From: a virus
IMG/VR virus record: IMGVR_UViG_3300039159_000018
Location: 1-23,589 of that record
DNA length: 23,589 nt
Strand: one strand, 5' to 3'
The notes beneath the pieces are model-generated. The model was not told the DNA's origin. It ran no database searches and saw nothing but the letters and a program-made list of their open reading frames with translations. Both the position numbers and the translations under genes were made by a program. This document shows, piece after piece, positions 1 through 19,582 of this stretch (position 1 is the first letter of the stretch; every line of letters begins with the position of its first letter).

Positions 1-651
1 ATAACTTACAATCCTAGCTCGGCCTTGCGGTGTGGCATTAATATATTGGCCTACACTTGCCACAGTAAATGATGCAGCAGAAGCCGTTAATGTTGCGTTA
101 CCCGATACGGAAGAAGGCGTTAACGTACCAGCAGGTGTCGTAACACTTAATACAAAAGCATAATCTGGTATTCCTGCAAATGTAACATTGGTAACAGTCC
201 ATGATGCGTCGTTAACACCACGAACAATAGTGACTGGCACCAAGTCTGGGTGCACAACAATCAACGTATCAGCCGACTGCGTCCAGTTAATTTCGGCAAG
301 CATTGCTGAAGTAATACCTGTTACTAAATACGGGTTTCCTGTGCCATTTATGTTTGTAACAACATTGCCATCTTTAAATATATACATGCGTAAATTAACA
401 AATGCAAGCATGTAACTATCTGTTACTGAAAACTCAAACGGCACTAAACGCACACCATTAGCAGCAGAGGCTGGAAGCGCATAACGAAACTTTGTGCCAG
501 CTCTGCGCTTTATCCCGCCTTGGGGTTGAATAACAATATTAGTGGCTTTTGCTAACGCATTTCGATACTGGTCAAGATCAACCCTTGCCCGCAACAAAGG
601 GTCTAATTCACCTGTGCTAAAGTTTGTTTGGAAGTCCAAAAAGCGTGGCAT
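1..651 (-). CDS. Tail tubular protein B / nozzle-like protein (partial, N-terminal 217 residues)
   Basis: The frame is open from an ATG at 651 to the left edge, so the C-terminal part lies outside the window. The N-terminus (MPRFLDFQTNFSTGELDP, then LLRARVDLDQYRNAL and a PQGGIKRRAGTKF segment) is typical of the large nozzle proteins that follow tail tubular protein A in T7-like and other podophages. Near the edge a segment ending in QGRARIVSY also recurs in this family. The start overlaps the stop of the preceding tail gene by one base (TAATG), indicating translational coupling. Its role would be to form the distal part of the short tail. Family assignment is from remembered sequence pattern and gene order; the exact subfamily is uncertain. 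Confidence 0.75.
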   Translation of the reverse strand, partial: MPRFLDFQTNFSTGELDPLLRARVDLDQYRNALAKATNIVIQPQGGIKRRAGTKFRYALPASAANGVRLVPFEFSVTDSYMLAFVNLRMYIFKDGNVVTNINGTGNPYLVTGITSAMLAEINWTQSADTLIVVHPDLVPVTIVRGVNDASWTVTNVTFAGIPDYAFVLSVTTPAGTLTPSSVSGNATLTASAASFTVASVGQYINATPQGRARIVSY

Positions 652-1256
652 TAGTATCTCACATCAATTAATGAGTAATCTTCAAATGCTTTTGTTGGTT
701 GGCCTTGACCATCAATATTTGCAGCCTGCCTAAAATATCCACTACGGCCATCGCCACCAACCGATACACCTTGCCAATAACCTGTTTTTGATTCTTGTTC
801 AGTAATGGGATAAGCTAAATGCCAAGCCATCATATATTTTAATAATTGAATAAAATACTGTGGCATTGCAAATTCAGGCGTTTGATAGGGATAATCTATG
901 ACAATAATCTTTTCATTAGTAAAAAGTTTGTCACCTAATATTTCCCATTCTTTAAAAGCTCTAGCGCCAATCTGAGTGTTATTAAAGACAGCACGAGGGT
1001 TTGCCAAACGATCGCCAGGCATTTGAAACTCGTATGACCATTCGTTAACGGGCGTAGTAATTAGCCTTGATAACTGCATTTTTTTGTAAGCAAACGACCA
1101 AGGGTAAAGTGACAAAGTCATATCACGCACGTTTGGGTAAAGACGGTCGCAAGTGTTAGCTTCGTCCGTGCCGTCTGTGAATGACGATATAGGTTTTGCC
1201 CCAAGCAAAATTAAAGCATCAGAACAAATAGAAACAGCCGAATCGCCTGCAGCCAT
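651..1256 (-). CDS. Tail tubular protein A (head-proximal tail ring)
   Basis: This 201-residue protein has the N-terminal pattern of T7 gp11-like adaptor proteins: a helix with SICSDALILLGAKPISSF, followed by an ANTCDRLYPNVRDMTLSLYPWSFA segment. Length matches the family (about 190-210). It would form the ring joining portal and nozzle. A GGGAG ribosome-binding site lies six bases before the ATG. The stop of the upstream methyltransferase gene is one base away and the downstream nozzle gene overlaps the stop by one base, so the three are one translation block. Confidence 0.85.
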   Translation of the reverse strand: MAAGDSAVSICSDALILLGAKPISSFTDGTDEANTCDRLYPNVRDMTLSLYPWSFAYKKMQLSRLITTPVNEWSYEFQMPGDRLANPRAVFNNTQIGARAFKEWEILGDKLFTNEKIIVIDYPYQTPEFAMPQYFIQLLKYMMAWHLAYPITEQESKTGYWQGVSVGGDGRSGYFRQAANIDGQGQPTKAFEDYSLIDVRY

Positions 1257-1257
1257 T

Positions 1258-1770
1258 TTAAACTCCCAATAATATGAACGTTACCTCACTAGGCTTGCTT
1301 GTGTCTACTGTTTTAACCTGCCAACCTGTAAATGACGTTTTAATTTTTTCAAGCCACCAAGATGGTGACTCAACAATCAAGTGTGCATTTCTGCCATCTG
1401 ATAATATTTTAGATGCAAGCCGTGTTGAAATCACTAAATATATTGCTTTTTTTGCAACACGCTCAATATCCTGTAATACTTCTTCTAAGCACTCAGGCTC
1501 GACATGCTCAAGCACGTCACAACAAGCAACCACATCATGTGGTCTTGGTTTGCCAAAGTACTCATAAACTGCTGGGTCATAATTAGTAACTTTAGACAGA
1601 TGCTTTGACATTTCACCTTTACCGCAACCGTAATCTAAAATTGTTTTAGCACCAACTTTCATAGCTAATTCACCAATTGCCACATATAACTTATGTCTAA
1701 CCCGTGAACCGTATCTAGGGTCTTGGTGCAAGTTAATATTTAATGCTCTGTATTTTTCGGTGATTAACAC
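1258..1770 (-). CDS. Class I SAM-dependent methyltransferase
   Basis: The 170-residue protein carries a clear SAM-binding motif I (DYGCGKG, residues 46-52) and a second strand with CCDVLEHV (residues 83-90), the usual layout of small class I methyltransferases of the type found in glycan or small-molecule modification clusters. Substrate cannot be read from sequence. The start is a GTG (1768-1770) preceded by GGGAG, and overlaps the end of the DUF115-like gene by seven bases. Together with that gene and the glycosyltransferase near the terminase it may modify a sugar. DNA methylation is unlikely because no DPPY-type or PCQ motif is present. Confidence 0.8.
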   Translation of the reverse strand: MLITEKYRALNINLHQDPRYGSRVRHKLYVAIGELAMKVGAKTILDYGCGKGEMSKHLSKVTNYDPAVYEYFGKPRPHDVVACCDVLEHVEPECLEEVLQDIERVAKKAIYLVISTRLASKILSDGRNAHLIVESPSWWLEKIKTSFTGWQVKTVDTSKPSEVTFILLGV

Positions 1771-2372
1771 GGCGCTCCCAAAACTTCTTTTGTCATGCCA
1801 GACATTGAATAAATCTTATCCGTCTTGCCGTTAACCTTATGGTTTTTTAATAATTGCAACCAATGTTTTACGTTTTCAGCAGAAGCAAAAGTATTGTCAT
1901 ACCTTTTTGTTTGTTGCCCATAACCTTGAGCATAGCCTAAATTGTCTGGGTCAAGCGGTATACCCGCCATAATAACCTCATCAAAGCCCATTCCGTGCCT
2001 AGCCCACAAAGCGCCAGCAATGCCAGACGAGCCAACAGCCCAGTTTAATTGTGGCCAAACATAATCAATCGCTTGCCATGCTGTATCTGGTGTCGGCAAG
2101 AACCATATTCCACCACCTTTGTTTTGATATTTTCTAGGCCTAGCGTGAATAATAATCGGTCTATTTATAGCTTGTTTGATTTTTAATGACAACTCACCAT
2201 GCTGTGTCCAGACATGATCTATTTCTGGAATAATATTAGATGCAAACTTTACGCCAATTATTTCAGCGCTTGGTCGCAATTTTCTTGCCTTTTCTAAATC
2301 CGATAAAACAGAAGGGGCTGCTCCACATATAATGGCGCAGCCCCCGTGCCGATGATTATATTCAATCGGCAT
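1764..2372 (-). CDS. DUF115 / MptE-like protein (putative glycan-modification enzyme)
   Basis: The N-terminal strand-loop AIICGAAPSVLSD (residues 13-25), a central GSSGIAGALWARHGMGFDEV segment (114-133) and the following IMAGIPLD (134-141) match the pattern of the DUF115 / 6-hydroxymethylpterin pyrophosphokinase MptE-like fold. Relatives include Maf flagellin-glycosylation proteins. The protein is 202 residues. The sequence suggests a nucleotide or nucleotide-sugar binding Rossmann-type domain; the reaction is unknown. There is no good ribosome-binding site before the ATG, so translation may depend on the upstream gene eight bases away. It ends inside the start of the methyltransferase gene. 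Confidence 0.6.
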   Translation of the reverse strand: MPIEYNHRHGGCAIICGAAPSVLSDLEKARKLRPSAEIIGVKFASNIIPEIDHVWTQHGELSLKIKQAINRPIIIHARPRKYQNKGGGIWFLPTPDTAWQAIDYVWPQLNWAVGSSGIAGALWARHGMGFDEVIMAGIPLDPDNLGYAQGYGQQTKRYDNTFASAENVKHWLQLLKNHKVNGKTDKIYSMSGMTKEVLGAPC

Positions 2373-2380
2373 AGCGTTTA

Positions 2381-2659
2381 TTAATCGCTATCTGTACCGC
2401 CAAGCGCTGTCGCGTTAGTTACATCTACGACTCCCGCAGCGTTGCTTGTGACAACATGCAGGCCAAAAGTAGGTGTGCTATCTGCATCAGCGTAGACATA
2501 AATCAAATCACCGACTTTCATGCTGCCAGCCATTTCATTGAAATAGCCAGAACCATCAACGTCAATTGCTAGGTCATTTGTTTTGTATGTCCAAATCTGA
2601 GGCGCTTGCCCTGCTTTTGAAGCGGTTGTAATGTTAAGACCATCTTTGCTAAAAGCCAT
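2381..2659 (-). CDS. Small head-associated virion protein (putative decoration protein)
   Basis: This is a 92-residue protein directly downstream of the major capsid gene. It opens MAFSKDGLNITTASKAGQAP, then has QIWTYKT and a beta-rich centre (MKVGDLIYVYADADSTPTF) and a GVVDVTN segment. Proteins of this size and pattern commonly follow the capsid gene in podophages. A head decoration or stabilising role is inferred from position only. An AAAGGAG site lies six bases before the ATG, one of the strongest ribosome-binding sites here, which fits high expression. Confidence 0.6.
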   Translation of the reverse strand: MAFSKDGLNITTASKAGQAPQIWTYKTNDLAIDVDGSGYFNEMAGSMKVGDLIYVYADADSTPTFGLHVVTSNAAGVVDVTNATALGGTDSD

Positions 2660-2670
2660 GATTTACTCCT

Positions 2671-3510
2671 TTACACTTCGGTGCAGTTAATATTGACGAT
2701 ACCTTCAGCGTCAATAGCAACAGCACCTGCTGAAAACATAGAAGATATCAAGAAGCTAGTCTTTTCTGGAATGTAATTGATTTCGGTTTTAGGCGAAATG
2801 CCCTCTGCCATGCCAACTGCATCACGATGAAAAGCCCAGCAAGTACGGCCGTCTGTATCAAGTGGTAAACCACCCTCATCACGATCACCTAATACGTGGA
2901 ACTGGAAACCCAAGAACGTATTAATGTCACCCTGAACCAAGGCTTTAACTGTATTAAAGTCAGAGCTGGTTACAGCAGTTTCACCCAAGAGTGAAGACAA
3001 TGAATTAGCGTGAATAATAATGTGGCGATCACGCATAGGAACGTTACCTTTGTCGAGCAATGCTTTCGCAGTACGCAACTTTGCAACGTTTAAGTTGGTA
3101 TTTGTACCACCAATGTCTTCCGACACGGTAAGCGTAGTGCTTGAACCGTTAAGCGCATCAAGAACCAACTGGTCTTGACGACGACCAATAGCGCTTGAAA
3201 CCACGTTAACTAACTCGCGACGCTCGTCAAAGTTTACCTTTGCTTGCATAAAGATGTCGCTATATTCAGCAGCAATCCAGTCTTGCAAGGTAGCAGTAAC
3301 TTGACCATAACTTACGTTAAGAGGAGATACATCAGTTTGGGGGATACGAACTTGTGCAACACCCTTGCCGATTTTTGGAAATTTGTAACTAGCGCCTTCT
3401 ACACCAGAACGAGTACGGACAGCACCGCGCAATTCAGCCATAGCTTGATATGCTTGTTTTACTTCCGCGTCGAACAGGGTAACAAAGGCAGTTGATAATT
3501 GAGCAGCCAT
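2671..3510 (-). CDS. Major capsid protein
   Basis: The 279-residue protein resembles the short major capsid proteins of podophages whose head genes lie between scaffold and tail tubular genes. Features visible are an N-terminal helix (LFDAEVKQAYQAMAELRGAV), a YKFPKIGKG segment, a DWIAAEYSDIF strand region, an ERRELVNVVSSAIGRRQDQ helix and a conserved DRHIIIHANSLSSLL segment, consistent with an HK97-type fold. It sits immediately after the scaffold gene, separated by a terminator and a long leader with a candidate promoter. AAGGA lies six bases before the ATG. Assignment rests on position and family pattern; the fold was not computed. Confidence 0.85.
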   Translation of the reverse strand: MAAQLSTAFVTLFDAEVKQAYQAMAELRGAVRTRSGVEGASYKFPKIGKGVAQVRIPQTDVSPLNVSYGQVTATLQDWIAAEYSDIFMQAKVNFDERRELVNVVSSAIGRRQDQLVLDALNGSSTTLTVSEDIGGTNTNLNVAKLRTAKALLDKGNVPMRDRHIIIHANSLSSLLGETAVTSSDFNTVKALVQGDINTFLGFQFHVLGDRDEGGLPLDTDGRTCWAFHRDAVGMAEGISPKTEINYIPEKTSFLISSMFSAGAVAIDAEGIVNINCTEV

Positions 3511-3646
3511 GTTAATTCCTTCGATTAAGTTTATACGGTTATGTCGTTTCGGTTAGCCATCTGGTGATGGGCCTAGACTTGCATTAGGGTGCCAGCCTAC
3601 TGATCACAGTAATTTAAGGGTCACCGTAGTGATATGCCTCTGATAC

Positions 3647-3675
3647 ATTTTATATTACTTATGGATAATTTACAA
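3647..3675 (-). promoter_or_regulatory. Candidate promoter for the capsid/tail genes with overlapping palindrome
   Basis: On the minus strand TTGTAA (3675-3670) and TAAAAT (3652-3647) are 17 bases apart, giving 4/6 and 5/6 matches to the sigma-70 -35 and -10 boxes. The -35 box forms one arm of the palindrome TTACAATTATTGTAA (3670-3684), so a regulator bound there would block or activate it. The match to consensus is moderate and promoter function is inferred. Confidence 0.4.
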
Positions 3676-3789
3676 TAATTGTAAGTAACTTTGTGGGCTA
3701 CTGGATAAAGCACCATTTGTTGAAAAGAAATGCTAATTACACAATTATAAAGTCGCTAACACTTTACTAGCCCACGTTGCTATCATGCC

Positions 3790-3818
3790 AAAAAAAAAGC
3801 CCCAGCGCAAGCTGAGGC
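3790..3818 (-). terminator. Rho-independent terminator after the scaffold gene
   Basis: Read on the minus strand, an 8-bp stem GCCTCAGC / GCTGGGGC (one G-T wobble) closes a TTGC loop (3818 to 3799) and is followed at once by nine T residues (3798 to 3790). It starts 34 bases after the scaffold stop. This is a canonical terminator and separates scaffold transcription from capsid transcription. Confidence 0.9.
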
Positions 3819-3851
3819 AAAATTCCTTGTTAAGGATACTTTGGAGACAAG

Positions 3852-4625
3852 TTAATTATACCGCGCAGCAAACATCTTTTCAACTTTAGAACGGTAAGAT
3901 GCGTCAGTTTGATACTTAGGGTCACCAACCATAGCCTGCAACTCTTGGTCTGTTGGCATGCCTTCAATTGGCATGGATTCAGTTGGTATTCTACCTTCGT
4001 ATGTTTCACGCAATTTCATAAGCGCTTTTAAGCCACGAGAAGTACCACCCATAACCTTAAATTCATCAAAGTCATCAGCGCTCCACACACCCTTGTTAAC
4101 CAAGCCACGCGCCCAATTAACCATGCCGTTGATTACAGAATCAGCATTAGCGCCTAGCGCCTTCTTTTCGGCAACTGGGTCAAACTTAGATTGCCCCATA
4201 GCCTCGGCTGCTAAAGTTGTTAACTCACCCGCCAAGCTGTCAAATGCTGTTTGGCTAATACCGTTTTCTGCTGCCCATTTTTGAAAGACTGGAACCATAG
4301 GCAATTTTTCACCATTATCACCAAACGAACTCAAGTCATACTTACCCTCTGGTGGTGCTTTGTGCTTGCCTTGTGAAACCATTTTTCGCATATCTTTCCA
4401 AGATTTTGCGATACCTTCTAGGTCTGGCTCGTCACCTTTCCAAAAGTTTTCAGGCCACCACTCTGGGCGCTCCTCTGCTTTTTTATCGGTAACTTGATCA
4501 GCAGCCCTATGTTCTACGGCTGTTGATTCTGGGCTAGGTTTCTGTTGACCTTCGTCGGTAGCGTCTGCGCTATCCAATAGGCCAGCAGGTTCTTCGCTGG
4601 GTTGGACTTCTTGTTCTTCGCTCAT
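3852..4625 (-). CDS. Capsid scaffolding protein
   Basis: The 257-residue protein starts with about 50 acidic, disordered-looking residues, then a Trp-rich segment (RPEWWPENFWKGDEPD) and a helical middle. It ends in a basic helical tail (PTDQELQAMVGDPKYQ followed by VEKMFAARYN), the arrangement seen in podophage scaffolding proteins, whose C-terminal helix-loop-helix contacts the capsid protein. Gene order portal, small genes, scaffold, capsid supports this. The ATG overlaps the stop of the preceding gene (ATGA). A strong terminator follows the stop. The protein would be needed only during procapsid assembly. Confidence 0.85.
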   Translation of the reverse strand: MSEEQEVQPSEEPAGLLDSADATDEGQQKPSPESTAVEHRAADQVTDKKAEERPEWWPENFWKGDEPDLEGIAKSWKDMRKMVSQGKHKAPPEGKYDLSSFGDNGEKLPMVPVFQKWAAENGISQTAFDSLAGELTTLAAEAMGQSKFDPVAEKKALGANADSVINGMVNWARGLVNKGVWSADDFDEFKVMGGTSRGLKALMKLRETYEGRIPTESMPIEGMPTDQELQAMVGDPKYQTDASYRSKVEKMFAARYN

Positions 4626-4876
4626 TTCAGATTCCTTGCACGGTTAATACGCAACTCAATCTCTTTGACAAGACTGCATCGCCCTTCTAAAAAATAGCCA
4701 TAAGACGGTTCTGCCCCTGGCCCCCAGCATGGCTGTTCAATGGTCTGATCTCTCAGCGTTTTTAACAGCTTTTGCCCTTCGTCTGTGCCAAACACTTTTA
4801 AGCACAATATATCTAAATCATTTACAGGTGGTGGTGTAAGCGATTGCTGCACCGCTTCTAATTCGTCCCAAGACAT
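4622..4876 (-). CDS. Bbp19-like small phage protein
   Basis: This 84-residue protein contains CLKVFGTDEGQKLLKTLRDQ followed by a YGYFLEGRCSLVKEIELRI helix. That pairing (FGT..G.. helix, then a FxEGRR-like helix) resembles the Bbp19 family named from Bordetella phage BPP-1, usually coded between portal and scaffold. Function is unknown. An AAAGGA site sits six bases before the ATG, inside the double stop (TAATAA) of the cupin gene, and its own stop overlaps the scaffold start, so expression is coupled on both sides. Confidence 0.55.
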   Translation of the reverse strand: MSWDELEAVQQSLTPPPVNDLDILCLKVFGTDEGQKLLKTLRDQTIEQPCWGPGAEPSYGYFLEGRCSLVKEIELRINRARNLK

Positions 4877-4879
4877 TTA

Positions 4880-5185
4880 TTATCCTTTGGTTATAAGAAT
4901 TTTATCAATATTGCTGGCGTCAACCTCATCTGTGGCGTGTACACAGTACCAAACACTACTTTCAATAGCTTCTATTTCGTGCGTCACGTTTGCTTTAATT
5001 TCAATGCACGCTGGGGCAAAATACATTTCTGGTTTGCCGTCTGCAAAAACCATAACACAACCCTTTGCCAAGATAGAAAAATGGGTAAAGGTGTGTTGGT
5101 GCTTTTCAAGTTTCATGCCAGCAGGTAAGTGTGCTTCTTTTGCATAAAGACCATCAGCAAAAAAATGGCAAATCTCTGGGTTCAT
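4880..5185 (-). CDS. Cupin-fold protein in the head gene block
   Basis: The 101-residue protein has a recognisable cupin motif 1: G23, H29-x-H31, then H35 where the motif usually has Glu, and G42. The second motif region supplies H69 (NVTHEIEAI). The size fits a single cupin domain. A metal ion bound by H29, H31, H35 and H69 is plausible. The reaction or ligand is unknown. It lies between portal and the Bbp19-like gene with an AGAGG ribosome-binding site, so it is made with structural proteins; it could be a virion component or a metabolite-binding protein. No signal peptide or membrane segment is seen. Confidence 0.7.
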   Translation of the reverse strand: MNPEICHFFADGLYAKEAHLPAGMKLEKHQHTFTHFSILAKGCVMVFADGKPEMYFAPACIEIKANVTHEIEAIESSVWYCVHATDEVDASNIDKILITKG

Positions 5186-5197
5186 TATTATTACCTC

Positions 5198-6820
5198 TTA
5201 CATTTGCGGTGTCATGGCTTGATCTGGTGCAACAGCAGCTTGCTGGTTAGCATTAACTTGTTGTTGTTGGCCAGCCATAGCCATCATTGCTTGGTCTTGT
5301 TGAGCAAGTTTTCTTTGCTCCTCAATAAGGTAAGCACGTTCGGCAGCCGTGGTTCTAAGTGCAGCAGGAACTCCTAACTTCTCGCCCAGGTAATCAATTA
5401 GATCGCCTGTCTTAATTGCTAATTGACCTTCATTTCCTAATGACGCAGTTAACTGCATAAACTGAACAATAGAATTTATTTCTTCCATGTTTTGCGCCAT
5501 AGCCAAAGGCGCTACGGGTGACACTCTGACTTCAAGGCCATTAACTCTTAAAGGCAAGTCAATTAAACCGCGCTCGTCCATAACTTGCAAAATGCGACTA
5601 ACCAATGGAATCATTGTTTCATTGATTAAACGACCAAATGCCGAGCCTAGACTTTGAGCCAACTCTTTCATGCGCTCAACAACCTCAGTAGCAGAACGTG
5701 CGCTCATGTTGTCTGGCGGTAAAGACTCGTCAAGCAATACGCGCTTAATGTTTTGCCTTAAATCATTAATAACAATTTGCGATACGTTAAAGTCACCCGC
5801 CCTAGGTAACGGACGCAATGACTCACCTTGTGGCCCACCGTTTCTGGCTACGGGAATAATTGTGCCAGGGATAATCTTAACGGTAGCTGGGTTTAAAACG
5901 CCATCGTCTGCTGCGGTATAGACGCCTGCAACAGCTAGTGAAGCATTTTTAAGCACCAGCTCAAGGGTTTTGTTTAAGGTTTTAATGTCAGGTAAAGCTG
6001 TCACCAACGGGCCACGCCCGTAAATCTCACCCGCCACCTTCATGTAACGGCTAATTACCCACGGGCTAGACTTCTGCCTACGGTAAACAATCTCTTCTTT
6101 GCTTACGCTATCAATGACGTGATAACACCAGTCACCTTGGTCTTGGTCGTAAACGGTAGCCTCAAGTAAGTCAACATCATCGGTTGGCTTGGCTTCAATT
6201 CGTTGTTTTATTTGTTCCGATAGCTCTGCATCACGCCATTGCTGGGCAATGCTTTCGCCCTTCATACGCATCTTACGATAGACTTTATCTACAACACCAT
6301 TAGCACCCTCTTCGTAAGCCACTAAGAACATTGGCACAGGAATAAAGTTAATTGGTGATACATCATCACCAGGCTGAACCAACATGCAAGCCGTGCCGAC
6401 AGATAAATCTAATAAAAACTCACCAATAGCAATGTCAAAGTTTGATTGTTTAATAACAGCAAACATCGTGTCGTTATAAACATCAAGCACAGCTTGAGCT
6501 TGGGTTTTGCGATCTGAGGGAATGTCTTGACCTGGCTCAAGGCGACACCATTTTCTTTGTGGCGGGAATATGCCAGACTGCAGGCGGTTAGAAAATCGTT
6601 GTGTACTGTTAATTGCAGTCGAATCAAACACTCGTGCCATCTTTTTATTGCCAACACTATTGCCTTCCCAATATCCATAAAGCTGTCTTTGTGGCAAGGC
6701 AAATTCATAGCAGTCACGGTACAAATCTTCAAACAAATCTTTTTTGCGCTGGGCAACTTCGGCTCGTTTAATGATTTCCTCAGTCGGCATTTTCTTGCCT
6801 TGATAATTTTGTTTAGCCAT
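5198..6820 (-). CDS. Portal protein (head-to-tail connector family)
   Basis: The 540-residue protein matches the podophage head-to-tail connecting family: an N-terminal helical region (LYRDCYEFALPQRQ), DSTAINSTQRFSNRLQSGIFPPQRKW, a YGRGPLVTALPDIKTLNKTLE segment, and a helical C-terminus ending in a Gln/Ala/Met-rich tail. Twelve copies of the family form the vertex channel for DNA entry. The frame is open to a GTG at 6832, but the ATG at 6818-6820 is preferred: it overlaps the previous stop by one base (TAATG), and GGAG lies 11 bases upstream, whereas for the GTG the GGAG would overlap the start codon itself. Confidence 0.9.
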   Translation of the reverse strand: MAKQNYQGKKMPTEEIIKRAEVAQRKKDLFEDLYRDCYEFALPQRQLYGYWEGNSVGNKKMARVFDSTAINSTQRFSNRLQSGIFPPQRKWCRLEPGQDIPSDRKTQAQAVLDVYNDTMFAVIKQSNFDIAIGEFLLDLSVGTACMLVQPGDDVSPINFIPVPMFLVAYEEGANGVVDKVYRKMRMKGESIAQQWRDAELSEQIKQRIEAKPTDDVDLLEATVYDQDQGDWCYHVIDSVSKEEIVYRRQKSSPWVISRYMKVAGEIYGRGPLVTALPDIKTLNKTLELVLKNASLAVAGVYTAADDGVLNPATVKIIPGTIIPVARNGGPQGESLRPLPRAGDFNVSQIVINDLRQNIKRVLLDESLPPDNMSARSATEVVERMKELAQSLGSAFGRLINETMIPLVSRILQVMDERGLIDLPLRVNGLEVRVSPVAPLAMAQNMEEINSIVQFMQLTASLGNEGQLAIKTGDLIDYLGEKLGVPAALRTTAAERAYLIEEQRKLAQQDQAMMAMAGQQQQVNANQQAAVAPDQAMTPQM

Positions 6821-7407
6821 TATTCGTACCACTCCAAAAGAATCTCTGCGGCATGTGACGTACCGTTGACATTTGTTAATCTAAATAAATATGTTGTTAA
6901 TGGTTTAAGAATTATTAGTGGGGAGTTAGTATCGCCACCACCTGCTTTTTTTCCCGTACCGCCAATAAGAATTTGACGTAATAATTCCGTACCAGTTGTT
7001 GTAACCGTTGGGTTGATTAACGCTGCTGATTGACTAGCCACCGCAGAAAAGTTGCGGTTAATGTTAAGAGCCGTTGCTGGTGTCCCACCTGTTACTGTTG
7101 AGCCTTCATATAAATAACCCATTGCATTGCCACCGCATAAACCTGAAACGGATAATTTTGGCGACACGCCACTTGCCCATGCAATCGCAATGTCAATATT
7201 TGCCCCAGCAGCTAACGGGATTGCAAAATCTTTTACAAAGCCTAAGCCATAAGCCCGACCTTCTAACGCTCGCAACATAAACACATCTTCCATTGGCAAA
7301 GGAAACTCTGAGCCAATAAGCGCTGGTTCGCCGTTACGGTCTAAGTAATTTGGCGTTACAAGCCTAGATTTAGCGGTTAATGATTCAAGCTCGACTTTAA
7401 TAGCCAT
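6820..7407 (-). CDS. Putative virion structural protein
   Basis: This 195-residue, beta-rich, Gly/Thr/Ala-rich protein has the pattern of a widespread phage protein: an Asn-rich segment (ALNINRNFSAVASQSAAL), a Gly-rich loop (GGTGKKAGGGDTNS), then PLTTYLFRLTNVNGTSHAAEILLEWYE at the C-terminus. Such proteins are found among phage structural genes, often annotated only as hypothetical. A surface or receptor-related role is possible but not shown. It is translationally coupled to portal (TAATG). An AAGG ribosome-binding site lies eight bases upstream of its ATG. Confidence 0.55.
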   Translation of the reverse strand: MAIKVELESLTAKSRLVTPNYLDRNGEPALIGSEFPLPMEDVFMLRALEGRAYGLGFVKDFAIPLAAGANIDIAIAWASGVSPKLSVSGLCGGNAMGYLYEGSTVTGGTPATALNINRNFSAVASQSAALINPTVTTTGTELLRQILIGGTGKKAGGGDTNSPLIILKPLTTYLFRLTNVNGTSHAAEILLEWYE

Positions 7408-7441
7408 TGTCTGCCTTTTGTTTGCGGTTCATATTCGACGT

Positions 7442-8224
7442 TTAAGCCGATTCTCTTTGAAGCAAAGGCCTGTCAGTCATGCGCCGTCTGGCGTTTGCAC
7501 TTGCAGATCGACGCTCACCAATCTCGCGTTGGAAGTATTCCTGCTCGCGTTGAAGTGCTGCTGTATACTTTTCGCCCAATCCGCTTGTGTCTGGCGCAAC
7601 GGGTGTTGTTGGGGCTTGAGCTGAGAATGATTCATTAAAAGCACCAGGGTCGCCTGTTCCGCGCTGCGCTAATTGGAATATTGGATAACCAGCAGGACTT
7701 GCGCCAACTTGTTTTAAGGCAAAGTTTGATGGGAGTGAAGACGCATCAAAACCTGTAACACGAGTTACTTTATCAACATACCATTGTTGTGCGTCAACAC
7801 CGCTTACGCCAGATAATGCTTGGCCTAATCGACCACTAAAGTCAAATTCACTTTTGTTAGAAGTGTCCCTTGCTAAATTAGCTGATAAGTAGGTGCTTGA
7901 TCTATCTCTAACTGGAAGAGCAACGAACGTCCCGCCAAATGGTGTAACAGTATTGTATTGATTTACCAAATCATTGTAAGCGTTAGCCTTAGTTTGAAAA
8001 TCCCTTGCTGCTGTTTCATATACGCCCATCTGTTTGCCGTACTCTGCAAGCTGGGTTTGGTAGCCTTGCAACAAACCTTGTTGTTCCGCTTGGAATTGTG
8101 AAGACGCTTGAGCTTGAGCGCGTTCATACCCACTTGTTAAATTGCCAATCTCAATTGATTGACGAGTTTTTCTGCGAGCTGTTCTGCGCTCCGCCATTGA
8201 TTTACTAATTTGCAAAAAAGGCAT
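7442..8224 (-). CDS. Putative internal virion protein, coiled-coil
   Basis: This 260-residue protein has a basic N-terminus (ERRTARRKTRQS), a long Gln/Ala-rich helical stretch (about residues 30-95), a middle domain with DRSSTYLSANLARDTSNKSEFDFSG, and a charged Arg-rich C-terminal helix. It has no recognised catalytic motif. Lying between terminase and portal in a podophage, it may be an ejection or core protein, but this is inferred from position and composition. Its AGGAG site includes the stop codon (TAG) of the preceding gene, eight bases upstream. Confidence 0.5.
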   Translation of the reverse strand: MPFLQISKSMAERRTARRKTRQSIEIGNLTSGYERAQAQASSQFQAEQQGLLQGYQTQLAEYGKQMGVYETAARDFQTKANAYNDLVNQYNTVTPFGGTFVALPVRDRSSTYLSANLARDTSNKSEFDFSGRLGQALSGVSGVDAQQWYVDKVTRVTGFDASSLPSNFALKQVGASPAGYPIFQLAQRGTGDPGAFNESFSAQAPTTPVAPDTSGLGEKYTAALQREQEYFQREIGERRSASANARRRMTDRPLLQRESA

Positions 8225-8232
8225 AGCAACTC

Positions 8233-8646
8233 CTACTGTAAACTCATGCCAGCACCAAAAGTTGAAGCGTCATACGAGCCTAAACCCAACTCTGGGTTTA
8301 ATCGTTCTTGCGATAAGAGCGCTCGCATACCGCCACGGCGCATTTGTGTCATACGTTTAGCTTCTTCTTCAGCATACTGACGCTGTTGTGTTTCTAAATC
8401 AGTCGCCATCTTCTGCGCTTCGCCCTCAACCCGCGCTCGGTCAGCAGCAGACTGATTAATTTCAAAACTCAAACGATCTCGTGCAGTATTTGCTGCTTCT
8501 CGCTGTGCTGCTATCTGTTTTTCTGCCTGCTGAGAAGCTGCAGTCGCCTGGCGATTTGCATCAGCCCTTGCAGCAGACGCTGCAGCAGCTTGACGGTTAG
8601 CCGTATAAATTCCAACACCTAATGTAGCAAGCGCAATAAAAGGCAT
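8233..8646 (-). CDS. Small Ala-rich coiled-coil virion protein
   Basis: The 137-residue protein begins with a short hydrophobic segment (FIALATLGVGIYTA, residues 3-16) and continues as a long Ala/Gln/Arg-rich helix (about 17-105), then a Gly-rich tail ending GAGMSLQ. This hydrophobic-start plus heptad-rich layout is common in small podophage ejection proteins encoded next to terminase or portal. Function is inferred. AAGGGG lies six bases before the ATG. The 86-bp AT-rich gap upstream separates it from the large terminase gene and may carry a promoter. Confidence 0.5.
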   Translation of the reverse strand: MPFIALATLGVGIYTANRQAAAASAARADANRQATAASQQAEKQIAAQREAANTARDRLSFEINQSAADRARVEGEAQKMATDLETQQRQYAEEEAKRMTQMRRGGMRALLSQERLNPELGLGSYDASTFGAGMSLQ

Positions 8647-8732
8647 AACTAACCCCTTAAATAAGTATTATGCAATTAATATAATTTTAACCTATATATT
8701 TGTTTTTTAACATAATGTATATCACAGTTATA
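8647..8732 (-). promoter_or_regulatory. AT-rich gap after terL, possible promoter
   Basis: The 86 bases between the terminase stop and the next ATG are extremely AT-rich and contain several -10-like hexamers on the minus strand (for example CATAAT, TATATT, TAAAAT) without a convincing -35 partner. No terminator hairpin is visible. A promoter for the portal-scaffold block is plausible but not established. Confidence 0.3.
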
Positions 8733-10289
8733 TCAACTAAATACATCAAAATCAGTGTTAGCTTGTGCTTGCTGTATAAACGCACCGCTTGATGTCAACG
8801 GTGTTTTGGTTAATCTTTTGTGTTCACCGCCACCTGTTAGCAAATACCCAAAAGCGTCACCAACGTGTGAGTGTTCGTTTTTGTTTGGCGTATCCCTGAA
8901 CCTTTCTTGGCCTGCACCAACAGCGACTCGTTTAAAATGATACCCACCTGCTAAGGATTTGCGTAGCATTTTGCAGTCTGTGTGGATAAGTAAGCCAGGC
9001 TTTCCCTGAATTAATCGCTGCATAGGTAAAGCTGCACCTTCTCGGCGCACTTGAAAGTTATTACTGGGGGCGGGCTGTGCTCTAAGACCTAATGTACGCA
9101 AATAATCAAAAGCTGTCACCTCGTAAATGCCATCTCGTTGCATACCTGCTGGGTCACCCCAGATTAAAATCTGCGCTTTAGGAAATTTAGTATTTACCTC
9201 GGCAAGCAATTGTTGGCCAAACCGTTCTAGCCCCATATCAAAGGTAACAATTTCGTGCAATATTTGCCACCTTCCATTTGATAGCCTTTGACCGATCACA
9301 GCAGCAGGTGTTAAACCAAAGTCAAGACCGATTTGCAAAGGCATACTGGGGTCGTACTCAACAGGCCCCGCCATCATGTTGTCATCGTACTCAGGCCAGA
9401 CGGGTCTACCTTCTTGAACGTAGGTGTACTTGCCTTCTGCGTAGCACCGAATCCAGTCAAGGTTTTTGCCACCTAACATTTGCATGTAGTAGCCAGCAGG
9501 AAGGTTGTTTAAGTTTTCAGCCTTTGGGTTTACTTTAAACCACCTGCCAGCAGAAAAGATATGATCGTTGGCTTCTGGGTTTTCTGGTAAATCGCCAGGG
9601 TCAACTTCAATAACACCGCCTGCTTGGTTAAAAAACTCCCAAGCGTAAGCGCCTGTTAGCTTTTCCTTCTCGGCCAGCCTGTACCACCAGTGGTCATCGT
9701 CCATTGGGTTGGTGTCTAGCCAAATGCCGTTCCATGTTGCGCCACCGTCACGCTTGGTAGGGTAGCGACCAACTCGGTGAGTTAACCCGTCAATTACCGC
9801 TTTGGGTAATTCTCGCGCTTCGTTAACCCAAGCGCCTGTTAATTCTAAAGATAGCAACTTTCTTACGTCTTTAGGCTGGTCAAGCGCTAAAAATATAACC
9901 TCACAGTCAATCCCTGCTGCGTCCCCTCTGGAAGGCAAGCGGATATGATGGGTAATGGGAGGCGTCCATAGCATATTGCCAAAGGTAGCCTCTGGAAACA
10001 GGTCTAGCCACGTTTTAATTGTTGTGGTTTTAAGCATAGGGTAAGAGTTTCTTACCACAGCAAAACGGGTATAGCGTATCCCGTCAACTGGGGAAGGCTT
10101 TTGCTTAACGGCTCGCATCATAATCTCTGCTGCACACGCATAAGACTTGCCACTTCCGACTGGGCCGAGCAAACCCCGCACGAAAGCATTTGATTGCAAG
10201 AATTTATAAACAACAGGCGAGCGTCTAAAGTCTAAATTAAGACCTGCTGTTGTCATTTCTTTTGGCGAGCCTTGTTTTGTACGTGCCAT
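8733..10289 (-). CDS. terL: Terminase large subunit
   Basis: The 518-residue protein has a Walker A motif GPVGSGKS (residues 42-49), a hydrophobic strand followed by an acidic catalytic segment (GAWVNEARELP) as in terminase Walker B regions, and nuclease-domain acidic positions in IGLDFGLTPAAVIG, ILIWGDPAG and HVGDAFGYLLTGG. It packages DNA into the procapsid by ATP hydrolysis and cuts the concatemer. Length and domain order are normal for podophage TerL. The ATG overlaps the stop of the glycosyltransferase gene by one base (TAATG). Confidence 0.92.
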   Translation of the reverse strand: MARTKQGSPKEMTTAGLNLDFRRSPVVYKFLQSNAFVRGLLGPVGSGKSYACAAEIMMRAVKQKPSPVDGIRYTRFAVVRNSYPMLKTTTIKTWLDLFPEATFGNMLWTPPITHHIRLPSRGDAAGIDCEVIFLALDQPKDVRKLLSLELTGAWVNEARELPKAVIDGLTHRVGRYPTKRDGGATWNGIWLDTNPMDDDHWWYRLAEKEKLTGAYAWEFFNQAGGVIEVDPGDLPENPEANDHIFSAGRWFKVNPKAENLNNLPAGYYMQMLGGKNLDWIRCYAEGKYTYVQEGRPVWPEYDDNMMAGPVEYDPSMPLQIGLDFGLTPAAVIGQRLSNGRWQILHEIVTFDMGLERFGQQLLAEVNTKFPKAQILIWGDPAGMQRDGIYEVTAFDYLRTLGLRAQPAPSNNFQVRREGAALPMQRLIQGKPGLLIHTDCKMLRKSLAGGYHFKRVAVGAGQERFRDTPNKNEHSHVGDAFGYLLTGGGEHKRLTKTPLTSSGAFIQQAQANTDFDVFS

Positions 10290-10945
10290 TATTTTCCCAA
10301 ACCTTCAAGTAACTCGTGGTAGTACTTTTTCCAATTGGAAGCCGTGTCACAACCGACATATTGCTTAAAGCAGGGTGTGCCAATAGTGTAATGCAGCAGT
10401 TTTGCGTCAGGATTTGGTTCATATTCCATGACTAACCAATTCCATTCAATAGGCAAGCTACCTATTTCATAATCGTATAACCAACCAAATCGGTGCAAGA
10501 AAGAACCTGTTAATGCTTCTACATTTTCTTGGGTAAGCGTTTCACGCATGGCTTTGTGGCCACAGTTAATAAGCATAAGGCTTGACCAATTCTTGCGTGG
10601 ATAGTCTTCATTTTTTTTACCAAGATATTTAACTGGGTGCTTGGTTTGGTAATCGTGTTTAACAACTTGTACGGCATACTGCTCATCTTTTAATGCCCAA
10701 AGTTGTGCAATATCATCTTGCATGACCATGTCACCATCAGCAAATATTGCCCAACCTTCATAGTTGCACAACATAGGTACTAAGAATCTTGAGTAGATAA
10801 AGTTATTACTACCATCTTTTTGTGGCATATCAATATTTAAAGGCGTTATTTGAACAGGTGTCTTGGTATTGCTTAACACTGATTGGCAAAAGACATGGTA
10901 AGCAATAGCTTCCTTTTGATCAAAACCTACAAACAATTTAATCAT
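10289..10945 (-). CDS. GT8-like glycosyltransferase inserted between terminase genes
   Basis: From the ATG at 10945 this is a 218-residue protein with a GT-A pattern: MIKLFVGFDQKEAIAYHV at the start, FIYSRFLVPML, then the metal-binding DGD (residues 70-72) in GWAIFADGDMVMQDDIAQLW, followed by RKNWSSLMLINCG. This matches a glycosyltransferase type often found near phage terminases. The reading frame extends upstream to 11026, but 10945 is preferred because GAGG lies six bases upstream and the ATG overlaps the small terminase stop (ATGATTAA). Donor and acceptor are unknown; virion, DNA or host envelope sugars are all possible. Confidence 0.75.
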   Translation of the reverse strand: MIKLFVGFDQKEAIAYHVFCQSVLSNTKTPVQITPLNIDMPQKDGSNNFIYSRFLVPMLCNYEGWAIFADGDMVMQDDIAQLWALKDEQYAVQVVKHDYQTKHPVKYLGKKNEDYPRKNWSSLMLINCGHKAMRETLTQENVEALTGSFLHRFGWLYDYEIGSLPIEWNWLVMEYEPNPDAKLLHYTIGTPCFKQYVGCDTASNWKKYYHELLEGLGK

Positions 10946-11372
10946 TGTTAACCTCAATATCTTCTGGCGCTTGTACGTTAATTCCAATAACAGAAGGTTT
11001 ATCAGAAATGTCCTCTGGCCCGTCAAGCAACCCAGACGCTTTGGCCAATAATCTCAACACACCTACTTTATCGTACAGCTCAACCTCTAGTGTGCTGTTA
11101 CCGTCTTTATCGTGTCTTACACGAATGTTTTTTATGGCTTGTAACGCATGCTCTGGTATTTGAGAAGAAGGTTTAACTTTTACCTTGCCATCTTCCCCCC
11201 AAGACATAATATCGGTAATCTTGGTGTTAGCCATGCACAGCAAAGAATAGGCAACTGCTTCCCTATTTTGGGTAATGGTATTGCTACGCTCAAGTCTTTT
11301 TTGAACAGATCGCACTCCACCCCACCCCTCCAAAGAAGGCACTTGCTTTGCTATTCTTGCTGATTTAGTCAT
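10938..11372 (-). CDS. Terminase small subunit (probable)
   Basis: This 144-residue protein lies upstream of terL, with only the glycosyltransferase gene between. Its C-terminal half contains IKNIRVRHDKDGNSTLEVELYDKVG followed by VLRLLAKASGLLDG, the pattern seen near the end of podophage small terminases (an LYDK...AL..LA...GL segment before an acidic tail). No classic N-terminal helix-turn-helix is obvious. It would recognise the packaging site and recruit TerL. The stop overlaps the next start by eight bases. AAAGGA precedes the ATG and lies beside a palindrome at 11384-11398. Confidence 0.6.
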   Translation of the reverse strand: MTKSARIAKQVPSLEGWGGVRSVQKRLERSNTITQNREAVAYSLLCMANTKITDIMSWGEDGKVKVKPSSQIPEHALQAIKNIRVRHDKDGNSTLEVELYDKVGVLRLLAKASGLLDGPEDISDKPSVIGINVQAPEDIEVNND

Positions 11373-13904: not shown

Positions 13905-13957
13905 TAATACATCAGCTTTCTAGCTGACTTTACTCAACTACTTAAAAGAGATTGATT

Positions 13958-14824
13958 ATGTCAAACGCAATATATGAAACCGTCACAAAAAGCATCATTG
14001 AGCAGTTAGAAAATGGTGTTGCGCCATGGGTTAAGCCCTGGTCAGCAGATAGCTCTGCAAATCAAAACCTAGTTAGCAAAAAAGCCTATTCAGGCATTAA
14101 CCGTTTAATTCTTGGCATGTCAGGCATGGCTAAGGGTTACACCAATAATAACTGGGCCACGTTTAAGCAAATATCTGAGGCTGGCGGTATGGTTCGTAAA
14201 GGCGAGAAAGCCACTCAAATTGTATTCTTTAAGCCAGTCACCAAAACAGAGATTAACTCAGCAGGCGATCTGGAATCTACGGGCTACGCTGTCATTAAAT
14301 CGTATGCTGTGTTTAACGCTGATCAAACAGACGGCCTTGAGCTGCCAGCAACACAGGCAACAATTGGCAATTTTCAAGACGTGCAGGCAGCAGAAAACCG
14401 GATCATTAAAACTGGTGCTGCCATTACTCATGGCGGTGATTCTGCTTTTTTTATGCACTCTGCTGATCGCGTCCAGTTACCAAATAAGACGGCCTTTTTA
14501 ACAGAGTCTAATTATTACGCTACTGCCTTTCATGAGCTTACTCATTGGTCAGGCGCTAAACATCGTTTAGATCGCGATCTATCAAAAGGCAAATTTGGCA
14601 ACCCTGAATATGCTTTTGAAGAATTAGTAGCAGAGATCGGTGCAGCTTTTCTTTGTCAAGATCACGGCATTGACGGCGATATCAGACACGTTGCTTACAT
14701 CAAATCATGGTTATCAGTTTTGAAGCATGACAACTCAGCGATTTTTAAAGCTGCTGCCCTGGCACAAAAAGCAGCCGATTACATAAACAGTTTAGACGCA
14801 ACCGCGCAATCAGTAGCAGCTTGA
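13958..14824 (+). CDS. ardC: ArdC-type antirestriction protein (ssDNA-binding domain plus metallopeptidase domain)
   Basis: The 288-residue protein starts with the ArdC N-terminal domain (IIEQLENGVAPWVKPW, SGINRLILG, NNWATFKQISEAGGMVRKGEKATQIVFFKP). It ends with a zincin-like domain carrying HELTH (residues 192-196) in YYATAFHELTHWSGAKHRL and a downstream acidic helix (FEELVAEIGAAFL, E222/E226) that can supply the third zinc ligand. ArdC proteins bind ssDNA and protect incoming DNA from restriction. Being first in the early operon fits immediate need after DNA entry. An in-frame TTG at 13952 exists, but the ATG at 13958 is preferred for its AAGAGA site. Confidence 0.85.
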   Translation: MSNAIYETVTKSIIEQLENGVAPWVKPWSADSSANQNLVSKKAYSGINRLILGMSGMAKGYTNNNWATFKQISEAGGMVRKGEKATQIVFFKPVTKTEINSAGDLESTGYAVIKSYAVFNADQTDGLELPATQATIGNFQDVQAAENRIIKTGAAITHGGDSAFFMHSADRVQLPNKTAFLTESNYYATAFHELTHWSGAKHRLDRDLSKGKFGNPEYAFEELVAEIGAAFLCQDHGIDGDIRHVAYIKSWLSVLKHDNSAIFKAAALAQKAADYINSLDATAQSVAA

Positions 14825-15446: not shown

Positions 15447-15531
15447 AGACGCGCTTTATGGCGCAATTGCAGGCGCTGTGCTGGGTTTGTTTTGGGGTTT
15501 AGTGTACATACTACGTACTGGTGGGTTTTGA
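15433..15531 (+). CDS. 32-residue membrane microprotein with a glycine zipper
   Basis: The frame ATG 15433 to TGA 15531 encodes MKNNKDALYG, then a hydrophobic segment to residue 27, and a short RTGGF tail. Residues G10, G14, G18 and G22 form a perfect GxxxGxxxGxxxG series along one helix face inside the single membrane segment (about residues 8-27). Such zippers drive helix packing and oligomerisation in membranes. The charge pattern is a basic/polar N-terminus and one Arg after the helix. The gene overlaps the upstream ORF by 14 bases and shares one base with the start of the serine recombinase gene (TGATG). Function unknown. Confidence 0.55.
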   Translation: MKNNKDALYGAIAGAVLGLFWGLVYILRTGGF

Positions 15532-16178
15532 TGCGTTACGTAGCTTATTATCGTGTTTCAACAGAAAAGCAAGGCCACTCTGGTTTAGGCCTTGATGCCC
15601 AGCGCCAGGCGGTTCAGCAATACAGCGCCAGTATTGATTCTGAGTTTATAGAAATAGAATCAGGCTCAGACGATACAAGGCCACAATTGCTGGCAGCGCT
15701 TGCACAATGCCAGAAGACTGGCTCAACCATTTTGATCGCTAAGTTAGACCGATTAAGCAGGGACGCCAGCTTTTTATTTCAGCTTAGAAAATCTGGCGCA
15801 GAAATACTAGCAGCCGACATGCCTAACGCTGGCATGCTGGAATTTGGGATACGGGCAATATTTGCACAACATGAGCGCGAGCAAATCTCAGCCCGCACTA
15901 AGGCAGCGCTGGCTCAAGCTAAATTACGTGGTGTTCGTTTAGGCTGCCCCTGCCCTGGTGTGGGTGCAGCAGCATCAGCGCTCAAAAAAGCAAAAAAAGC
16001 TAACGACTATGCGAGCGCTCTGAAACCTTTATTGGAGTCACTTACAAATCGGTGTGCAAGTTATCAAGATTTAGCTGACGCTTTAACCCTAAAAGGTATA
16101 CGTACAGCGTCTGGGAATATCAGATGGGGTAAGAGCAGCGCACATGCTGTTATGCAAAGATTGGGGCTGTCATTATGA
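15531..16178 (+). CDS. Small serine recombinase (resolvase/invertase family)
   Basis: The 215-residue protein has the catalytic N-terminus YYRVSTEKQ (R8, S10), GLDAQRQAV, and the KLDRLSRD segment with R74 and R77, all expected in active serine recombinases. A long helix region (ISARTKAALAQAKLRG) links to a C-terminal helix-turn-helix (YQDLADALTLKGIRTASGNIRWGKSSAHAVMQRL). The size fits resolvase/invertase enzymes, not large serine integrases. The start at 15531 is chosen because it fits the catalytic-domain start and couples to the upstream gene. An in-frame TTG at 15492 would add 13 unrelated residues. No recombination sites were identified. Confidence 0.85.
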   Translation: MRYVAYYRVSTEKQGHSGLGLDAQRQAVQQYSASIDSEFIEIESGSDDTRPQLLAALAQCQKTGSTILIAKLDRLSRDASFLFQLRKSGAEILAADMPNAGMLEFGIRAIFAQHEREQISARTKAALAQAKLRGVRLGCPCPGVGAAASALKKAKKANDYASALKPLLESLTNRCASYQDLADALTLKGIRTASGNIRWGKSSAHAVMQRLGLSL

Positions 16179-19375: not shown

Positions 19376-19582
19376 ATGAACACAAAACAAGTAGGTGGTA
19401 CACATTACAAATCAGATATTGAATGTTTGGATTACATCATCGCAAACCAGCTGGGCTACTTAGAGGGTAACGTCATTAAGTACGTTACCCGCCACAAAAG
19501 CAAGGGCGGGCGTGCGGACATACTGAAAGCAATCCACTATCTTGAGAAAATACTTGAGGTGAATTATGGGGTGGAGGAATGA
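19376..19582 (+). CDS. DUF3310 (SaV-like) protein
   Basis: The 68-residue protein is a clear match in pattern to DUF3310: VGGTHYKSDIECLDYIIANQ, then LGYLEGNVIKYVTRHKSKGG and DILKAIHYLEKIL. The family is common in tailed-phage early regions and is sometimes labelled a nucleotide kinase without proof. The length is normal. The ribosome-binding site is weak. It overlaps the start of the methyltransferase gene by four bases. Confidence 0.8.
   Translation: MNTKQVGGTHYKSDIECLDYIIANQLGYLEGNVIKYVTRHKSKGGRADILKAIHYLEKILEVNYGVEE

Follow-up and report, generated by a model that had tools for sequence, protein, structure and literature searches.

The sequence considered here is the viral record IMGVR_UViG_3300039159_000018 of IMG/VR (23,589 bp, with one end cutting a tail gene; this whole stretch is called the window below). 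The phage is podovirus-like, that is, short-tailed. Among its late genes are three that bear on sugar chemistry, all on the minus strand: a GT8-family glycosyltransferase (GT8), a class-I S-adenosylmethionine (SAM) methyltransferase (MT), and a protein of 202 amino acids (aa), referred to as DUF, for which a GT42/Maf/MptE fold is predicted. An earlier note on this DNA had described them as glycan-modification genes scattered inside the morphogenesis block. The three genes, their borders and their candidate targets are, in the order of the late block:

10938..11372, minus strand: terminase small subunit (terSmall), a border of the GT8 site (Terminase_2, 25.2 bits, just under the cut-off of 26.1)
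10289..10945, minus strand: GT8-family glycosyltransferase (PF01501 Glyco_transf_8, 27.7 bits, above the Pfam gathering score of 24.3; phrog_28018, 7.9e-35)
8733..10289, minus strand: terminase large subunit (terLarge), a border of the GT8 site (phrog_2, 1.7e-22)
2671..3510, minus strand: major capsid protein (MCP), a candidate target (Phage_capsid_2, 4.4e-74; 9eg4_A, 1.4e-49 with the family profile)
2381..2659, minus strand: h92, a capsid decoration-like protein of 92 aa directly upstream of the cassette, the other candidate target (phrog_18004, of unknown function; profile match to 9eg4 chain H)
1764..2372, minus strand: DUF, GT42/Maf/MptE-fold protein by predicted structure, the anchor gene of the head-tail insertion cassette
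1258..1770, minus strand: MT, class-I SAM methyltransferase (Methyltransf_23, 38 bits, above the Pfam gathering score of 27; phrog_24759, 5.2e-27)
651..1256, minus strand: tail tubular protein A (tubA), the downstream border of the cassette site (phrog_394, tail, 1.9e-33; tail tubular protein phrog_9239, 8.1e-07)

Between terLarge and MCP come three uncharacterised genes, the portal gene, a cupin gene, a Bbp19-like gene and the gene of the capsid assembly protein, and the cut tail protein gene follows tubA. The Pfam and PHROG matches of GT8 and its neighbours confirm that GT8 lies between the two terminase genes, as the earlier note had it. MT and the MptE-like protein likewise lie between head and tail genes, specifically between MCP/h92 and tubA. 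To call the genes scattered was misleading, because MT and DUF form an overlapping pair in a dedicated site and GT8 occupies a second, variable site. The packing is tight, with overlaps of 8 nt between terSmall and GT8, 1 nt between GT8 and terLarge, and 7 nt between DUF and MT. The first two depend on the start of GT8. Its open reading frame (ORF) as listed spans 10289-11026 with a TTG start, but an alternative ATG at 10945 is very probably the start because relatives start there. From this ATG the gene overlaps terSmall (10938-11372), and its stop overlaps the ATG of terLarge.

Relatives were collected with profile hidden Markov models built from small seed sets; some annotated phages contributed seeds to both the MT and the GT8 set, but these two scans were run separately. 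Each scan kept the best 80 loci by closeness to the query, which is not a random sample, and some loci overlap, several coming from one contig through different queries. The DUF profile was found in 82 loci besides the window, with h92 directly upstream in 77 of them; four others start too near a contig end and one is called otherwise. This regularity first suggested that DUF is required by the whole phage lineage. Since a DUF-fetched sample depends on DUF, loci were refetched with MCP (best 80 of 589), and the suggestion was rejected: the site is empty in 60 of 74 informative loci (h92-tubA gap of 24-85 bp, no DUF), 13 are filled and all DUF-positive, and one is undetermined; the remaining 6 of the 80 end too early.

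The slot behind DUF was surveyed in 76 loci having both DUF and tubA, which gave 56 distinct sequences (deduplicated by exact sequence only). GTb, a glycosyltransferase of phrog_1962, occupies 24 of these, MT 15, and MTb, a second methyltransferase, 8; two hold GTb together with MTc, a small methyltransferase-like gene named by eye and without family match, and 7 are empty. Every distinct filled slot (49/49) therefore holds a glycosyltransferase (GT) or MT match. The site is fixed and the slot is interchangeable. Among plus-strand ORFs in 69 DUF loci, no other recurrent family was seen except apparent overlapping-frame ORFs. The slot region of one locus (L239) carries an extra GT2-like gene, under the Pfam cut-off.

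Within the lineage, 50 longer records were compared, DUF absence being judged at the h92-tubA site of the locus. Of the 19 DUF-less records, 18 have h92 directly before tubA; in the other (L311) h92 is uncalled and MCP and tubA lie ~306 bp apart. GTb is present in 17 of 31 records with DUF and the MT profile in 11 of 31 (3 of them weak, of MTb type), against 0/19 without DUF for each. GT8 makes the fairer test of co-occurrence because GTb and MT lie inside the DUF cassette, and it occurs in 8 of 31 records with DUF versus 0 of 19 without (n=50; Fisher p 0.018).

The link between GT8 and MT extends to other phages. A tblastn database of 50,697 annotated phage records contained GT8 relatives in 18 records and MT relatives in 22, with both in 16. 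In all 16 shared records the two matches lie ~40-260 bp apart by their coordinates. These records represent three lineages, namely Caulobacter giant phages (14 records), the podovirus ctDrO704 and Stenotrophomonas phage DLP_6, and the adjacency was confirmed in one opened record for each. When IMG/VR loci were fetched with MT (best 80 of 583), 7 carried DUF and belonged to the window's lineage. Among the 73 outside it, GT8 was present in 49, within 2.5 kb in 48 and on the same strand in 49/49. As a control, 80 loci fetched with the window's C5 cytosine methylase gave 0 GT8, 0 DUF, 0 GTb, 0 MTb and 1 MT; for GT8 the difference (49/73 vs 0/80) has a Fisher p of 4e-22. The earlier note had proposed a co-occurrence analysis across phages, and in this one the GT8, MT and DUF genes are not independent: they occur together more often than by chance. 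Outside the window's lineage, one locus (L137:4034-6339) has four genes in a row, namely MT, a sialyltransferase-like gene, GTb and a distant DUF homologue.

The GT8 site is less regular. Of 23 loci in which the two terminase genes are both present, 7 have GT8 in between; the terSmall-terLarge site is also used by other small ORFs and by a PAPS-reductase-like gene (a label given by eye). The latter is found in this site of sister phages at L015:1635-2450 and L013:11018-11854, and the site is therefore a second variable slot. In one sister phage (L012:10001-10648) GT8 is located between rusA-like and replication genes rather than between the terminases; its contig is also that of locus L181, where the head-tail site holds DUF and GTb. 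This irregularity, together with the absence of GT8 from several long DUF-positive records, would fit independent accessory genes (morons) gathering at tolerated spots of the late operon without any common pathway. Such loose traffic would not lead one to expect a GT or MT in every distinct filled head-tail slot, nor an MT-GT8 linkage that recurs across unrelated phages and is missing from the 80 control loci, and we consider it unlikely.

In GT8 enzymes a D-x-D motif binds metal and nucleotide sugar, and the C-terminus carries a motif of the HxxGxxKPW type. In GT8 of the window, D70 and D72 are invariant in 6/6 aligned sequences. At the C-terminus H185, G189 and P191 are invariant, and the window reads HYTIGTPCF, the K and W of HxxGxxKPW being absent. 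A search of solved structures by sequence gave WbbM as the sole plausible match for GT8 (E 0.0083). For MT, the glycine-rich motif I reads LDYGCGKGE in the window, and residues D46, G48, D65, D85, G126, N128, H130 and W139 are invariant in 7/7 aligned sequences. MT and its relatives share a G-x-N-x-H signature ('DGRNAH' in the window), and the relatives often adjoin a GT8-like gene in unrelated phages. FkbM, a name given to relatives in some GenBank records, is not among the six Pfam families listed for MT at E 0.1.

DUF matches no Pfam family at E 0.1 and no PHROG at E 0.01. At a limit of E 10 it reaches 12.4 bits against MptE-like/DUF115 (PF01973), below the cut-off of 34.6, and five of seven DUF relatives match the same family at that limit, the best at a sub-threshold E of 0.0039. 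A scan with the single DUF sequence returned no relative, tblastn of DUF against the phage collection found none, and a search of solved structures by sequence gave no relevant match; relatives were found only with an alignment as query, which fetched 79 loci. A first structural model, from 7 sequences, was poor (predicted local distance difference test, pLDDT, 51.7) and was discarded. The model used, from 32 sequences, has a pLDDT of 92.3 and a predicted template modelling score (pTM) of 0.90. Foldseek returned no match to it at E 0.001 or better, its top three being ST8SiaIII (E 0.0012), MptE and Maf. A second pass with VIA-align over Foldseek's 1000 best chains placed first the GT42 sialyltransferase CstII of Campylobacter jejuni (1ro7; Z 11.7, root mean square deviation, rmsd, 3.5, over 181 of 202 aa), followed by Maf of Magnetospirillum (5mu5; Z 11.3 over 174 aa), MptE (MjHPPK, 8sd5; Z 10.0, rmsd 3.8, 153 aa), SteA (Z 9.8) and a Pasteurella sialyltransferase (Z 9.6). 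Next came mammalian sialyltransferases, thiamin pyrophosphokinases and lp_1622 at Z 6.0-7.3, and all others were at 4.4 or less.

The model supports a GT42/Maf/MptE fold for DUF, with glycosyltransferases as the nearest structures, although a shared fold shows no function. DUF is only 14% identical to CstII and has no sequence-family match, so that this likeness is at the level of the fold. The solved Maf chain has 632 aa and is aligned at residues 260-508 only; DUF, with 202 aa, lacks the full Maf architecture. The label 'DUF115/MptE-like' of the earlier note thus holds for the predicted fold and not for the Pfam score. With MptE scoring close to CstII and Maf, and MptE-like being the sole relevant Pfam family that DUF approaches, DUF could be a pyrophosphokinase-like (MptE) or other nucleotide enzyme instead of a glycosyltransferase, and only GT8 and MT would then act on sugars. 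However, the best Z values are those of glycosyltransferases, a GT or MT stands behind DUF in every filled slot, and the DUF profile matches a phage alpha-2,3-sialyltransferase-like family (E 3.3e-5 in a single comparison, probability 72%). A nucleotide enzyme therefore appears quite improbable.

In a second group of phages, whose MCP is of another type (Phage_capsid_3), the genes for a TPR protein, MT and GT8 are located between those of MCP and of an SU10-type adaptor; locus L140 shows the order. Among 119 neighbour proteins from 10 loci of this group, the commonest Pfam and PHROG matches were the adaptor (10), an unknown PHROG (10), TPR (9), a virion structural protein (9), MT (8), the GT8 PHROG (8) and MCP (7). 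The annotated podovirus ctDrO704 has a similar gene order. The distant DUF homologue of L137 is matched by the DUF profile at E 6e-6 in a database of four loci and at E 0.0012 in a larger set. Its own homologue in Paracoccus phage Pkon1 (tblastn 2e-23) lies directly after the MCP gene, overlapping its end.

The h92 family profile matches chain H ('orf16') of PDB entry 9eg4 at E 0.03, which is weak alone but is supported by the shared entry, chain A of 9eg4 being the best match of the MCP. Hence h92 looks like a decoration protein.

Judged from gene content and position, the gene set is real, non-random and functionally coherent, and we favour reading it as a mobile virion-glycan cassette. The three genes are probably parts of one glycan-modification module, acquired and swapped as cassettes at fixed late-operon sites of this podovirus group and serving to decorate the virion. 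We infer from the genes the enzymatic activities, the sugar, the methylated atom, the target and the benefit of such a module. DUF and GT8 would use nucleotide sugars of the host to glycosylate newly synthesised virion proteins, the likeliest being h92 or MCP, the neighbours of the cassette, and MT would O-methylate the sugar. Virions would in this way bear a capped glycan that varies, with a different terminal enzyme from one sister phage to another. A virion target is favoured for four reasons. First, the site has capsid/decoration genes on one side and tail genes on the other. Second, the second group has MT and GT8 between MCP and adaptor in spite of its different MCP. Third, the distant DUF homologue adjoins the MCP gene in Pkon1. 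Fourth, h92, next to the cassette, looks like a decoration protein.

The relation between h92 and the cassette is suggestive. The MCP of the window is 77-83% identical to those of DUF-less phages (L230 excepted), whereas its h92 is only 38-51% identical to theirs. With L092, a phage that carries both DUF and MT, the identity is 72% for h92 and 71% for MCP. In a tree of h92 from 105 loci, a clade of 31 rows is DUF-positive throughout (31/31) and spans several MCP backgrounds, including MCPs that group with those of DUF-less phages. In tests of independent pairs, h92 type and DUF presence agree on average in 4.1 of 5 and 4.9 of 7 pairs on the MCP tree and in 5.3 of 7 and 6.0 of 9 on the tubA tree, none going the opposite way. 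The stronger claim that h92 clearly tracks the cassette was dropped, given the results of the parsimony and independent-pair tests described below. Speculatively, a minimal Maf/sialyltransferase-like enzyme might put a keto-sugar activated by cytidine monophosphate (CMP), similar to sialic acid, pseudaminic acid or 3-deoxy-D-manno-oct-2-ulosonic acid (Kdo), on h92, and h92, this enzyme and the capping GT or methyltransferase might pass between sister phages as a single block. Capsid glycans would then diversify through the exchange of cassettes, in a manner resembling that of flagellin glycans. In alignment columns 35-36 of h92, examined after the clade had been defined on the tree, the all-DUF-positive clade has D35 (100%) and mostly G36, and the other rows have N35 (97%) and T36 (100%).

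Several observations weigh against the interpretation as a virion-glycan module. A position beside structural genes may just be a tolerated insertion point in the late operon. Of the 73 MT-fetched loci outside the window's lineage, 23 have no detectable GT8 and one gave no MT call. The reverse link is weaker, since MT was found in 16 of 73 GT8-fetched loci outside the lineage, and within 2.5 kb in 11. Some long DUF-positive records lack GT8 (these are fragments, in which absence does not prove that the phage lacks the gene), and several of the 8 GT8-positive DUF records are close relatives of one another. In the h92 tree, the 74 rows outside the clade comprise 57 DUF-negative and 17 DUF-positive ones. 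The tests of independent pairs are borderline (median p 0.03-0.13), and the numbers of DUF changes under parsimony are nearly equal on the MCP, h92 and tubA trees (7, 6 and 8). Because h92 physically adjoins DUF, linkage (hitchhiking) alone could explain their association. Finally, GT8 has 444 relatives in bacterial genome contigs, some of them near CMP-Kdo-synthesis-like or surface-sugar-like genes.

The last point is pertinent to a different role, in which the enzymes would alter lipopolysaccharide (LPS), capsule or another surface glycan of the host at a late stage of infection, so that sister phages could no longer adsorb or progeny would not be lost to debris. In the best 80 of the 444 cellular GT8 relatives (5 kb flanks), MT was found in 6 and GTb in 3. 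Their recurrent neighbours were a TPR protein (22 loci) and, labelled by eye, KdsD-like (21), KdsB-like (19) and KdsA-like (10) genes, and one relative (L410) lies beside a MurJ-type flippase gene. Synechococcus phage S-SCSM2R has its GT8 gene near annotated KdsA and KdsB, which also fits a host-surface role. The Kds-like neighbours hint at a keto-sugar context, equally compatible with host surface glycans, and are the main evidence against a purely virion reading. On the other hand, the GT8, MT and DUF genes lie among head-tail genes here, and the head-tail position is seen in the second phage group too. DUF had no relative in the scan of bacterial genome contigs, where the patterns used matched 9 stretches and none of these was confirmed. 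A serotype-conversion (gtr) module consists of a small flippase and a membrane glucosyltransferase, and no gtr-type membrane-bound transferase or flippase was found among the 30 proteins of the window, itself a fragment, that were scanned with Pfam. A host-surface role is possible but doubtful. Of the late glycan pathway suggested earlier, the part that stands is that the genes belong together, with virion decoration fitting their positions; nothing points specifically to a host surface sugar, and the proposed block to re-infection has nothing specific in its favour. DNA hypermodification was also considered and rejected, given the linkage to head-tail genes and the lack of a base-hydroxylation gene among the window proteins scanned.

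Glycosylation of phage particles has precedents. In mycobacteriophages Che8, Corndog and Myrna, phage glycosyltransferases glycosylate capsid and tail-tube proteins (Freeman et al. 2023, as described in PMC12363180). A glycosyltransferase gene is carried with structural genes in the window as well. However, the glycosylated proteins were identified there according to that description, whereas here we infer glycosylation from the genes. The mycobacteriophages also belong to another phage group, and the present cassette is built around a GT42/Maf-fold protein whose GT or MT partners can be exchanged. Outside phages, PMC3426422 describes a Maf protein of Aeromonas caviae as a putative pseudaminic acid transferase for flagellin.

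Other viruses show parts of the arrangement. Caulobacter phage CcrColossus has, behind a tail gene, GT8 adjoining a gene of the same MT family, and an annotated alpha-2,3-sialyltransferase is close by. In Tetraselmis viridis virus S20, the stretch from the head to the head-closure genes contains a gene of the MT family together with two annotated alpha-2,3-sialyltransferases, but no GT8 match was found there. The cultured Methylophilales (OM43) phage MEP301 (PMC8024684) has an MCP 73.5% identical to that of the window, followed by an h92 homologue (54%) and tubA. Its head-tail site, in contrast, is empty, with 65 bp between h92 and tubA, and no match to GT8, MT, GTb, MTb, MTc or DUF was found in the 24 kb examined of its 34.8 kb. 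Directly behind terLarge, MEP301 carries an annotated putative acetyltransferase (L399:5177-5677). A GT8/MT/DUF cassette was not found described in the open-licence literature. Since virion glycosylation of phages is already known (Freeman et al. 2023, via PMC12363180), what is new is this anchor protein and the arrangement.

If the cassette does decorate the virion, a glycan coating would be a modular trait of a largely uncultivated podovirus group, marked by a recognisable site, which most of the close relatives sampled have empty and which, where filled, holds glycan-type enzymes. Such a modular site offers natural comparisons, namely of an empty with a filled site and of one capping enzyme with another. 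A function would also be suggested for a viral protein family that has no Pfam or PHROG match at the usual limits. This raises the question of why phages should sugar-coat their particles outside an animal host.

Some other genes of the window may be mentioned. The cupin-like protein (101 aa, 4880-5185, minus strand), whose gene is flanked by those of the portal and Bbp19, has matches to PHROGs that bear the names short tail fiber protein and tail fiber adhesin; among MCP-fetched loci its gene is called only in L244, L249, L251, L252 and L254-L258, and it is also present in L230. The plus-strand block opens with an ArdC-type anti-restriction protein (ArdcN and MPTase-PolyVal domains, 13952-14824), and the same strand carries a gene with a Resolvase N-terminal domain of the serine-recombinase type (15492-16178). 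The C5 cytosine DNA methylase whose relatives served as control loci is encoded at 19579-21093 (plus strand), with a DUF3310 gene before it.

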